Part shown: piece after piece, positions 14,205 to 34,738 of the stretch
How positions within the stretch are numbered: position 1 is the stretch's first letter
Layout of the letters: each line of letters begins with the position of its first letter
NCBI GenBank assembly: GCA_021157415.1
Contig: JAGGWN010000016.1
Span: forward strand, 1 to 35,832
Direction: 5' to 3'
From: Bacteroidales bacterium
GTDB lineage: Bacteria; Bacteroidota; Bacteroidia; Bacteroidales; VadinHA17
DNA: 35,832 nt
Position numbers and translations under genes: made by a program
Notes under the pieces: generated by a model
The model's database searches: none
What the model saw: only the letters and a program-made list of their open reading frames with translations
What the model was told of the DNA's origin: nothing

Positions 14205-14293
14205 GGAAGCAGGGACGCAAGATTTTTGTGTCCCTGCAGTTCAGATTAAAGTGTTTTGTCTGTTCACCGGAATTTTCACCAAAACAGGGAATT

Positions 14294-14409
14294 CCTAAGA
14301 CGGCATCGCTATCGCGTAGCTTCAGCCGAGCAAAGGATTTGCCCGGTACGGCTCACGGCCTGTTTGCCATAGGAGATTTTTCCGATATCGCTATTGCGCC
14401 AACTGGGTT
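14294..14409. repeat. Dispersed ~116-bp repeat, copy A
   Basis: It is similar over its whole length to copy B at 33705-33822. Shared landmarks in order are CCTAAG, CGGCATCG, TAGCTTCAGC, AGGATTT, CCCGGTACGG, a T-rich stretch and GCGC-A-AC-GGG-TT. Small internal palindromes occur (GCT...AGC around TTCAGCC). It sits between the convergent GH36-like and phosphoesterase genes, and its right part (14353-14409) encodes the last 18 residues of the phosphoesterase. Confidence 0.8.
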
Positions 14410-16839
14410 AAACAATTGTCTGTACCTGCTGTCCCGGATTTCCGGCATGGGAGAATGTTCTCCTTTGATGGATTTCCACAGGATCTCATTGAGAGGTTGT
14501 TCCGGAGCTTCATCTTCTTCATCCCAGTCCATTAGCATGGAAAGCTTTGATCCGTATGTATCATCGGTATTCATACGGTCCATAGGCCATGTGTTTCTCA
14601 GATAGTCATACGGGGTGAGGTCCGGTTTGTCCGTAAAGGCCGTGGTAAGAGGGAAAGCCGCCGCATCAAACTGACTCATGGGTTCTAAGCCCAGGATCAG
14701 CTCAATCGTCCTGAGCACACTGGTGGTGCTGTACATGTTATGATCGGTCCATCCTCTTTTGGCATAGGGCGAAGCAATCAACAGGATGGAGCGGTGGGCG
14801 TCCACATGATCAGGACCGTTCTGGGCATCATCCTCCAGGACGAAAAGGGCCGTTTCTTTCCAGAATTTGCTGTGGGAGACCGCGTCAAAGACCATTCCGA
14901 GAGCCAGGTCGTTCTCAGCGACCATTGAACGGGGGGTATGCTTGTGTAGGGCCGTACCGTATGTATGATCATTGGGCAGTCGCATGATCATCAGGTTAGG
15001 CCAGTTGCCTTTTTTCTCATACTCATGCATTTCCCGGATAAACTCCGCCGCACGGAGTGTGTCGGGGTAGTTAAGATCCCAGGGACGAAAGCGGGGATCA
15101 AAATGACCTTTCAGCTTGTCCATGGGCGTATAGTAGTAAGTTCCTGAAGAATCATGACCTATTTTGATAAATTCAGCATAACTGCGATAGGAAATACCTG
15201 CTCTGGCAGCCATATCCCAAAGGTATCCGATGGCCGGAGATGCGATGGGGTAATTCCCTTCTGAGGGATACCCCTTTCCCCGTCCCGAATAAGTAGCTGG
15301 CCAGGTTTTTTCCACAAAATCGGTAGCAACGGCTGCTGTAGACCATTCATGGCCGTCGGCACTGACCTCGGCGTCCACATAGAAATTATCAAAAAGGATA
15401 AACTGCTCTGCGATCTTGTGATGATTAGGAGTGATTTTCCTGCCGAACAGTACCAGCGAAGTATCTCCGTTCCCCCGGGCCATATCTCCAAGGACCTGAT
15501 CATAGGTGCGATTTTCCTTAATGATGTATATTACGTGCTTTATAGGAGAGGTGCCTCCAGGCAACGGTATGGCATGGGGTCTGGTGTCCTTCTTCTTGTT
15601 TTGGCTCATTTTTTCCCAGTCATTGTTTTTACGGACCTGGACGGTAAACTCCATGAGCTGTTTATCATCAGGTACAGGCAGAACAGACACCGTGCCCCAG
15701 AGAAGTCGTCCGATATATTGTGATTTCTTGGCATCTTTGTCAACAGGCTGAGGGGCCCGGGGATTGGGTTTGGAGCGAAGTCCTTTTCCGTTGGCGATAA
15801 ACAGGGTCTTTCCGTCCCCGGCCAGAGCTGCTGCCGTGGGATACCACCCTGCCGGGATCAGGCCTTTGACCCTGGAGGACCCCGGCACGGAAATATCAAG
15901 GACCGCTACATCATTGTTGCCGGCATTGACAACAAAAAGTGTTTTGCCGTCAGAGGTGACAGCCAGTCCGTTGGGGGTGGACCCATACCGGGCACCGGGA
16001 TAAGGCCGGACAGAGATGGTTTCTATAACCCGGTCTGATTTTGTGTCAATGGCCGAAACATCGTCGGTGTTGGCATTGGCAACGAACAGGCGACCGTCAT
16101 CTGCCAGCACCATCTTGTTGGGATGATCTCCGGCCGGGATGGTGCCGATAAGGGTTAAATCATAGGGGTCAACCACAGCTACGGCTTTCCCTCCCCAGAT
16201 GCTTACATAAAGCTTTTTTCCGTCCTGTGTCATGACCACATCGTACAGAAAGTGATCAAAAGAAAGATTTTTTACAATCTGTTTGTCTGAAACGGAAATT
16301 TTGAGAAGTTTTCGGGCGGTTTTGGTAGCAACGTATAGAAATTTTCCGTCCCGTCCGGCAGTCAGACCTGTTACAAACCACTCATCGGATGATCCCGGAT
16401 TCACATACATGGAATCGGTCTGAACAAACTGTCCTTTCCGGAGCGAAAAAAAATAGATCAGGTTTCTGCCGCCGCCGGAAGCATACAGCATCTGCCCATC
16501 CCTGCTGAAATCCAGACCGAAGAAAGAAGCTTGTACAGGCAGGGTCTGTACTTGTTTTTGTTGTTTGATATCAATGATCGAAATGAATTGTTCACTGTAT
16601 CCGTTGTTGGTGACTGCCAGGTATTTTCCATCAGGACTGACGGTCATGTTCAGGGGCAGATCACCCACGGGAATCTGCTCTCCGGCGGGGGTGAGCCGGT
16701 AATGATTAGGCAGGAGTACCGTGCCGTCTGATGTTGTTCCGGGCCATTGAGGGCTATGCCCTTGTTTGCAGGACAAGACCCATAGAACCAAAACCAGCAT
16801 GATGCTGATCATGAATAAGGAGGAGGTTAATCTTTTCAT
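14353..16839 (-). CDS. Bifunctional YncE-like beta-propeller / phosphoesterase lipoprotein
   Basis: An 828-aa exported lipoprotein (lipobox VLS-Cys24). Residues about 45-385 are YncE-like beta-propeller repeats, visible as recurring units of the type PDGKYLAVTNNG, RDGQMLYASGGG, DGRLFVANANTDDVSAID and SDGKTLFVVNAGNNDVAVLD. Residues about 435-760 form an alkaline-phosphatase-superfamily phosphoesterase domain, starting at IKHVIYIIKENRTYDQVLGD. It contains SADGHEWS, MRLPNDHT and VLEDDAQNGPDHVDAHRS, which supply the predicted metal-binding Asp and His residues. The combination is a known architecture in Bacteroidota and Acidobacteriota; the substrate (phosphodiester or phosphomonoester) is unknown. 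It is divergent from the SGNH hydrolase gene and convergent with the GH36-like gene. The last 18 codons are supplied by a dispersed repeat, so the original C-terminus may have been replaced. Confidence 0.9.
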   Translation of the reverse strand: MKRLTSSLFMISIMLVLVLWVLSCKQGHSPQWPGTTSDGTVLLPNHYRLTPAGEQIPVGDLPLNMTVSPDGKYLAVTNNGYSEQFISIIDIKQQKQVQTLPVQASFFGLDFSRDGQMLYASGGGRNLIYFFSLRKGQFVQTDSMYVNPGSSDEWFVTGLTAGRDGKFLYVATKTARKLLKISVSDKQIVKNLSFDHFLYDVVMTQDGKKLYVSIWGGKAVAVVDPYDLTLIGTIPAGDHPNKMVLADDGRLFVANANTDDVSAIDTKSDRVIETISVRPYPGARYGSTPNGLAVTSDGKTLFVVNAGNNDVAVLDISVPGSSRVKGLIPAGWYPTAAALAGDGKTLFIANGKGLRSKPNPRAPQPVDKDAKKSQYIGRLLWGTVSVLPVPDDKQLMEFTVQVRKNNDWEKMSQNKKKDTRPHAIPLPGGTSPIKHVIYIIKENRTYDQVLGDMARGNGDTSLVLFGRKITPNHHKIAEQFILFDNFYVDAEVSADGHEWSTAAVATDFVEKTWPATYSGRGKGYPSEGNYPIASPAIGYLWDMAARAGISYRSYAEFIKIGHDSSGTYYYTPMDKLKGHFDPRFRPWDLNYPDTLRAAEFIREMHEYEKKGNWPNLMIMRLPNDHTYGTALHKHTPRSMVAENDLALGMVFDAVSHSKFWKETALFVLEDDAQNGPDHVDAHRSILLIASPYAKRGWTDHNMYSTTSVLRTIELILGLEPMSQFDAAAFPLTTAFTDKPDLTPYDYLRNTWPMDRMNTDDTYGSKLSMLMDWDEEDEAPEQPLNEILWKSIKGEHSPMPEIRDSRYRQLFNPVGAIAISEKSPMANRP

Positions 16840-33609: not shown

Positions 33610-33704
33610 TCTGTATTAGAAAAATAAGCGGTCTTCGCAAGTCTCCCTGACGTTGGCAAAGAGGGACGAATAAATCACTGCCACATGCAGGCTTCATATA
33701 TTAA

Positions 33705-33822
33705 CCTAAGGCGGCATCGTTTTCGTTTAGCTTCAGCGGAGCTAAGGATTTACCCGGTACGGCCTGCGATATGTGTACAATAGAAGTTTTTTTTCGAAAG
33801 CTCTATGGCGCAAACCGGGATT
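33705..33822. repeat. Dispersed ~118-bp repeat, copy B
   Basis: Homologue of 14294-14409, in the same orientation. It contains a perfect TTAGCT/AGCTAA inverted repeat around TCAGCGG, and CCCGGTACGG. It fills most of the gap between the convergent dapB and the uncharacterised gene and ends exactly in the latter's stop codon. Nothing else is seen in 33610-33704 beyond a short CCCT...AGGG pairing. Confidence 0.8.
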
Positions 33823-34738
33823 AATCATCATGTTTAATCACCGTAAACAATATATGATTATAAGGTAGTCTCACCGACGTATCCTGTTGCAATACCACCA
33901 GCCCTTTGTGGGCATCATATACCCAGTCGGTCCAGTCGAGTTGATTGCGACGACACTGCACAGCCAGGAAAGTGCCTTCGCAAAGACGGGCGATAGGTCC
34001 TTGCACTCCCGTGAGGTTCAGTCCGAGATGAAAAGACTGGACGATCTTGTTGCGATTTCGGGCAAGCACCAGCTTTACCAGTCCTTCCCCCAGCCGGGTG
34101 ATGGTTTCCAACCCGGGCAGCGCGGTATGTACCAGGTCCAGACCCTTATGAATCACCTCACTGTCCAGGACGGTCAGGGCTGATTCATCTTCTTCGTTGG
34201 AGAGATTGATGACATTCACTTCGAAATCCAATCCGCTGGAAGGAACTTTCAGTCCGGTAAAAATAAAATTCCCCAGTACGCCTGCTCCTTCATTTTCTTT
34301 GGAAACGTATTTCTGCTGAAACTGAACTTTTACGGGTTTTCCTTTGGTATCCGTACCATGCCGTGCATTGAACTGAAGTAAAATATTGTGTCTTCCCCAA
34401 CCCGGATAATTCATGGTATATATCCCTGACAGGAGGATATCTACCCTTGTCCCTTCCAGAGAGGTATCCGGATCGATGGCTCCGGCAAACAGGATGGGAT
34501 GCAGGCCCTTCTCTTCGCCCGGCCGGATATATCCGAAGGTATGTTCTGTTCCTCTCCAGGTGGCCCGGCTCAGACGGGGTGTCTCTTTTACCTCGCTGAT
34601 CTTGAGATTGGCCAGGGAAGGATCTTCCCGGACCATGGATTCCAGCGTTGCAACATTTTTCTTATCTCCGATCTCCTGAAGATAATCGATGGTTTCATGG
34701 AGTGTCAGATCAGAAATCTTTGTTTTCATTTGTTTCAT
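33821..34738 (-). CDS. Uncharacterised 305-aa protein
   Basis: A 305-aa protein with no signal peptide or membrane segment, hence probably cytoplasmic. The N-terminus (about 1-50) is helical and charged (DLTLHETIDYLQEIGDKKNVATLESMV). The rest looks mostly beta: TRVDILLSGIYTMNYPGWGRHNILLQFNARH, GNFIFTGLKVPSSGLDFEVNVINL, and a C-terminal stretch ending RLPYNHILFTVIKHDD. A central DLVHTALPGLETITRLGEGLVKLVL segment is helical. I do not recognise the family. Two ATGs close together (34738 and 34729) are possible starts. It is alone on its strand, with dapB convergent across a dispersed repeat; the SDR gene upstream is 139 bp away. Confidence 0.75.
   Translation of the reverse strand: MKQMKTKISDLTLHETIDYLQEIGDKKNVATLESMVREDPSLANLKISEVKETPRLSRATWRGTEHTFGYIRPGEEKGLHPILFAGAIDPDTSLEGTRVDILLSGIYTMNYPGWGRHNILLQFNARHGTDTKGKPVKVQFQQKYVSKENEGAGVLGNFIFTGLKVPSSGLDFEVNVINLSNEEDESALTVLDSEVIHKGLDLVHTALPGLETITRLGEGLVKLVLARNRNKIVQSFHLGLNLTGVQGPIARLCEGTFLAVQCRRNQLDWTDWVYDAHKGLVVLQQDTSVRLPYNHILFTVIKHDD

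Follow-up and report, generated by a model that had tools for sequence, protein, structure and literature searches.

Two related repeats at convergent gene ends

The 35,832-nucleotide stretch analysed here (the window) carries two copies of a short repeat, each sitting between convergent genes. The four flanking genes are a melibiase-like gene, a phosphoesterase gene (PF04185), dapB and one gene without a Pfam match. A sequence search aligns positions 14285–14420 with 33705–33827 on the same strand at 76% identity (E = 1.1e-17), bearing out the initial annotation, which had described two co-oriented copies at convergent gene ends; the borders are now refined to about 14260–14407 and 33705–33819. 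We compared both sites with related genomes, and refer below to the genome of the window (3.28 Mb) as G000 and to six sister genomes as G001 to G006, together the seven genus genomes. The features are as follows.

14260–14407, plus strand: MITE copy 1 (family match 14270–14409; stretch absent from sister G006)
14388–14407, minus strand: right terminal inverted repeat of copy 1, 3 mismatches to the pattern
14353–14407, minus strand: 3′ end of the phosphoesterase open reading frame supplied by copy 1 (comparison with G006 and G003)
33705–33819, plus strand: MITE copy 2, 115 bp (family matches, flanks and comparison with the long form)
33700–33704, no strand: left target duplication ATTAA of copy 2 (single ATTAA at the G003 empty site, by eye)
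33820–33824, no strand: right target duplication ATTAA of copy 2, containing the stop codon of the minus-strand gene 33821–34738
33800–33819, minus strand: right terminal inverted repeat of copy 2, 3 mismatches to the pattern

Both window copies retain only the right terminal inverted repeat. Copy 1 has lost its left end, where the border is placed to within about 10 bp either way, and ends on the right in GGG at 14405–14407. Copy 2 ends on the right in ACCGGG; its left end, CCTAAGG, corresponds to sequence from the interior of the long form of the family described below. Copy 1 overlaps the phosphoesterase open reading frame over its final 55 bp, the frame stopping within the copy, and the C-terminal 17 residues and stop codon of the protein come from the repeat; the sister proteins end ...QLFNNKSQ* (G006) and ...QLFKDKTQ* (G003).

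Comparison of the window sites with two sister genomes, G003 and G006, reveals empty sites. Copy 2 is absent from both, and the ATTAA that brackets it occurs singly at the G003 empty site (by eye). Copy 1, which has no clear target duplication, is wholly absent from G006 and also absent from G003, where about 120 bp of other sequence stands instead; an early idea that TTAAA duplications flank copy 1 was dropped after comparison with these two genomes. The G003 sequence (contig C74, L206) is unrelated and hairpin-rich and lies in the same intergenic gap, and the copy 1 site may be prone to insertion. Separately, a hairpin GCAGGGAC..GTCCCTGC lies at 14209–14237, directly 3′ of the GH36-like gene. 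Its position is kept in G003 and G006, with letters differing on both arms in G006 (by eye), and it looks like a conserved 3′-end structure of the host.

An apparently genus-bound family of short elements

Searching G000 with copy 1 at E ≤ 10 returned 29 matches, including 18 with E below 1e-4, and a longer full-length relative on contig C7 returned 53; with a variant from the same contig there were 41 at E ≤ 10, a large share of which were weak or overlapped other matches. The dispersed family occupies about 60 places in G000 and is present in five of the six sister genomes, and the genome search proposed with the initial annotation thus yielded the further copies it had anticipated. Among 60 genomes searched, G000 included, matches at E ≤ 0.001 occurred in seven: six of the seven genus genomes and one outside, where the sole match spans 33 bp, and the family therefore looks genus-bound in this sample. 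The commonest hairpin loop, searched among named records, was found in eight stretches (three Bacteroidales/Bacteroidetes metagenome-assembled genomes). Rfam gave no match at the repeat, and two tRNAs only across the whole window. Contig C7, whose many copies raised the idea of a plasmid or island, holds genes typical of a chromosome, among them ligA, dapA, secA and recF (identified by eye in the translations), and that idea was rejected.

Intact copies run from CCC to GGG and have terminal inverted repeats of about 20 bp with a consensus of about CCCRNWTTNCGCAATAGAAA. At up to 3 mismatches this pattern finds 54 and 53 sites in G000, against 8 and 3 for a reversed control pattern. Pairing of these sites, which covered 298 kb of G000 sequence, yielded 45 pairs of 41–206 bp with main lengths of 41, 50–52, 110, 125–127, 148–166 and 205–206 bp; the list includes first-hairpin-only parts of longer or broken copies (C20:8913, C23:122335, C23:131542, C42:19157 and C7:60253) and weak pairs on C48 and C124, and the C98 and C120 pairs are probably one copy split by assembly. 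With 18 partial copies, the G000 catalogue comprises 63 places. The initial annotation had suspected a genome-wide REP- or MITE-like family, and the MITE-like option is supported: the elements are short and numerous, with terminal inverted repeats in intact copies, target duplications and empty sites, and they carry no transposase gene of their own.

By eye, a hairpin built from the terminus and an inverted copy of it lies at the left of the long form A; a central hairpin, additional modules and a right-hand hairpin follow, and form B, of 159–162 bp, follows the same plan in largely different letters. An alternative left start, CATGTTCGTTTCATC or near it, replaces the usual terminus in several copies (L005, L010, L041/L044 and L049). 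Folded as single-stranded DNA, a 51-bp copy (z = -8.7) and a 163-bp copy from G004, folded with the final 13 bases removed (z = -7.4), lie far beyond shuffled sequences. The short palindromes reported earlier are thus strong in intact relatives, but the window copies themselves fold no better than shuffles, either as RNA on both strands (z = -0.75 to 0.33) or as DNA on the plus strand (z = -0.45 and 0.22). Within a copy, the two arms of the first hairpin agree better than arms re-paired between copies (z = 5.5 for 69 unique arm pairs, with both strands of one palindrome represented in some cases; z = 3.9 for the 50 arm pairs from G000), an excess that may also stem from subfamily structure.

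Target duplications accompany the family in G000 and in four sister genomes. In G000 the 5-bp flanks are identical in 14 of 34 good pairs and an exact duplication is missing in the other 20; re-pairing predicts 2.9, and none of 20,000 shuffles reached 14. Without the quality cut the count is 16 of 45, with 3.4 expected, and in four sister genomes exact duplications flank 16 of 27 pairs, with 2.5 expected (29 pairs were found and 2 dropped for want of a right flank).

An IS1380-family transposase as candidate mover

Matches to DDE_Tnp_1 number 13, in five of the seven genus genomes, and one match, located in G002, is bracketed by inverted repeats of the MITE type. This insertion sequence is 1560 bp long, ends in CCCAGATTACGCATTA / TAATGCGTAATCTGGG and encodes a 442-amino-acid transposase that scores 238.8 bits against the IS1380 model NF033539 (cut-off 180) and 150.8 bits against PF13701; its flanks, TTAAT and TTAAA, agree at four of five positions. 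Of 16 MITEs from G001 and G004, 12 carry the end CTAATGCGTAATCTGGG of the insertion sequence and so have the same termini as the IS1380 element. G002 holds the only intact IS1380 gene among the seven genomes. G004 has three transposase fragments at contig ends, of 25–38 amino acids each and 100% identical in protein, and in two of them the end of the insertion sequence lies beside a terminator-like hairpin or T-tail. Inside the G002 element, upstream of the transposase gene (L150:1839–1855), a small hairpin CTAATGCTACGCATTAG repeats the core of the terminus and is a possible self-regulatory binding site.

The termini in G000 differ from the G002 end at at least 3 of 20 positions (17 of 20 agreeing at best, by eye), and the G002 insertion sequence is therefore a relative of the G000 mover, a candidate rather than a proven mover. 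A search for an IS1380 transposase gene in G000 gave no hits, so that the G000 copies look stranded. Mutual identity of long copies is 82–88% among five from G000, 91–99% among nine from G004 and 85–95% among seven from G001; the lower values in G000, together with the undetected gene, fit loss of the mover. PF01609 matches in G000 were considered as partners and rejected: that on C18 has only chance-like terminus matches with 4–5 mismatches, that on C73 has one and that on C74 none, the C73 and C74 matches beginning at contig ends with one side of each out of view.

Non-autonomous MITEs mobilized by IS1380-family transposases are the best explanation of these observations, to which we assign a probability of about 0.82. 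A DDE transposase would bind the termini of about 20 bp (CCC..GCAATAGA / TCTATTGC..GGG) before moving the element; the target, A/T-rich DNA cut with a 5-bp stagger, would be filled in to leave the direct repeat (TTTAT, ATAAA, ATTAA or ATAAT). The taste for A/T-rich targets is akin to the TTAA preference of piggyBac. The repeat, its terminal inverted repeats and target duplications, the empty sites, the IS1380 gene with matching ends in sister genomes and the positional bias are direct observations, whereas we infer both mobilization by such a transposase and the reasons for the present positions of the copies. Insertions in coding DNA would be purged by selection, so that surviving copies would be intergenic, most often between converging genes, and some would survive at terminator T-tails. 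In G000, where no transposase is detected, the copies would be decaying and both window copies would be relics; copy 2 was apparently made using the internal CCTAAGG as a makeshift left end, the one such case.

Copies favour convergent gene ends and some adjoin terminators

Not one of the 63 catalogued places is set more than 100 bp into a gene from both sides, against a baseline of 88.5% coding, although gene ends called with a home-made gene caller are overlapped by up to 57 bp at several places. Of 57 classifiable places, 23 are convergent, 18 tandem and 16 divergent, the other six lying at contig or stretch edges. In a 308-kb baseline that includes C7 and the window, themselves holding copies, convergent gaps account for 12.6% of the intergenic length and 16.3% of the gap count, predicting about 7 (P = 1.3e-7) or 9 (P = 1.4e-5) convergent places, respectively. 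In tandem gaps, 13 of 18 copies lie closer to the 3′ end of the upstream gene. The association with convergent ends in the initial annotation is therefore a real tendency but not a rule, and is best read as tolerance combined with a taste for A/T-rich sites.

Some copies abut intrinsic terminators. A strong terminator (score ≥ 16) adjoins 10 of 62 places, the place on C98 being left out for its short flank, compared with 12 among 590 A/T sites used as controls; of the ten, one is within an element, and without it the count is 9 of 61, or about one in seven (P = 3.7e-5). The adjacency depends on the threshold. Raising it to ≥ 18 leaves 10 of 62 places and 6 of 590 controls; lowering it to ≥ 14 gives 11 of 62 and 38 of 590, and ≥ 12 gives 11 of 62 and 77 of 590, by which point the excess is largely gone.

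Alternative explanations for the repeats

The other option in the initial annotation was REP-like palindromes, which would be spread by a RAYT (Y1 transposase) and perhaps act in transcript ending or stability. Solo hairpins of 41–52 bp do look REP-like, and PF01797 genes give 16 matches in five of the seven genus genomes, three of them in G000. Fourteen of the 16 loci were examined. Five have one or more element-like stretches nearby: partial MITE copies on both sides of the Y1 gene on G003 C14, one beside that on C31, a disrupted Y1 stretch on the far side of a truncated element on G000 C7, a weak 33-bp match on G003 C15 and two copies 0.4–0.9 kb downstream of the gene on G000 C13. The other nine lack a nearby element, although the flanks are short at several of them, which are situated at contig ends. 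A Y1 gene flanked by repeat copies, as expected of a REP/RAYT system, was encountered only on G003 C14, with partial copies, and we read the element-like stretches near Y1 genes as nested or neighbouring insertions. The Y1 gene on C13 sits among palindromes of another kind, and the clear target duplications indicate a DDE enzyme; Y1 enzymes are not known to make any. Spread by a RAYT is accordingly very unlikely. The proposed check for a transposase and target duplications thus found duplications (14 of 34 pairs) and Y1 genes mostly without the repeats, but no IS1380 gene in G000.

Two Y1 loci are of separate note. On G000 C13 (L277:700–1640), an intact RAYT-like gene is flanked on both sides by CCCGTAGGG-type palindromes, apparently a separate REP/RAYT system in this genome. 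On G003 C14:35340–36340 (L284), a Y1 unit lies between two MITE right halves, each with a stretch of about 30 bp (ATTATTTCCGGTAAATGCCGGG...), as if co-duplicated.

The elements might instead be retained at convergent ends as functional 3′ structures, serving as bidirectional terminators or mRNA stabilizers. Convergent enrichment under either baseline, the strong hairpins of intact copies and the within-copy pairing of first-hairpin arms in both the full and the G000 sets would all suit such a role, but 34 of 57 places are tandem or divergent, the pairing excess may reflect subfamilies, the window copies have no unusual fold and both are absent from two sister genomes. We found no support for the function in transcript ending or stability that had been proposed, and consider retention for it quite improbable. 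That the repeats are decayed remnants of one larger insertion sequence, or belong to another transposon family, is extremely unlikely: partial copies do occur at 18 of 63 places, but the elements recur at discrete lengths with target duplications and the interior of the G002 insertion sequence looks unlike that of the MITEs (by eye).

Short forms match predicted products of internal deletion

Within long MITEs, halves of the terminus are duplicated and further direct repeats occur. In form A, deletion between copies of CGCAATAGAA (at 10 and 164) or CAAAGGATTT (at 49 and 130) predicts 52- and 125-bp forms; deletion at TCTATTG predicts a 51-bp form and at ATTGC in form B a 41-bp form, both products added after the short forms had been seen. 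All 25 short pairs compared, 8 of them with an exact target duplication, match one of these four products at 0.70–0.98, with next-best values of 0.06–0.71, and some of the 41-bp pairs are parts of longer copies. Two 110-bp pairs fit the predicted deletions poorly (0.58 and 0.68), and two further form B products, of 51 and 131 bp, were predicted and none seen.

These matches suggest, tentatively, a conveyor in which deletion between internal repeats would turn long IS1380-type MITEs into the 125-bp form and solo hairpins of 51, 52 and 41 bp, a reading we regard as possible but doubtful. By analogy with the origin of solo LTRs, the short products would keep the outer ends and often the target duplication. 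In its boldest form, the reading would make the 41–52-bp hairpins mobile even now, as the shortest elements on which a DDE transposase acts. The reverse history, with solo hairpins assembled into long forms, is possible.

Relation to known mobile elements

ISEcp1 belongs to the IS1380 family. The G002 insertion sequence shares its transposase family with IS1247 and ISEcp1, and the 5-bp duplications described here recall the 5-bp direct repeats reported for IS1247 in a table of PMC3281130 and for ISEcp1, at A/T-rich sites, in PMC7527135. PMC3281130 also describes TMos of Paracoccus, in which single IS1380-family copies move with adjacent DNA of various lengths, and the makeshift end of copy 2 fits such behaviour. 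Unlike these insertion sequences, the repeats are geneless, have forms of 41–206 bp bounded by terminal inverted repeats and apparently have only the termini in common with the G002 element. IS1380 transposases are placed as an outgroup to piggyBac in PMC10813416.

Other bacterial MITEs, including Correia/NEMIS, BrickBuilt of Porphyromonas gingivalis, MITEPye1 and TIMEs, are likewise non-autonomous and mostly intergenic, with terminal inverted repeats and target duplications. By contrast with the present family, TIMEs of Pseudomonas are Tn3-derived and MITEPye1 of Paracoccus yeei is probably moved by IS1182, according to PMC4133298 and PMC11578231, respectively; the family described here combines several hairpin modules and also has solo hairpins. 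REP/BIME sequences with RAYT genes are similar in being small intergenic palindromes, some of them lone hairpins, but our elements have target duplications and lie mostly away from the Y1 genes present. The small BOX, RUP and SPRITE repeats of Streptococcus pneumoniae also cluster and insert into one another, as summarized in a review (PMC10969869), although they belong to another host and are likened here by description and not by sequence.

In the passages of open-licence papers that we consulted, MITEs linked to IS1380 were not described for Bacteroidota or any other group. The family is ordinary in kind, and what is new is its members and their likely IS1380 mover. MITE insertions also rewrite gene ends, as in the conserved phosphoesterase that receives its last 17 residues from one copy. 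The conveyor, if true, would provide a worked case of MITE decay into REP-like lone palindromes. For this kind of intergenic repeat, found in uncultured Bacteroidales, the analysis names a likely mover.
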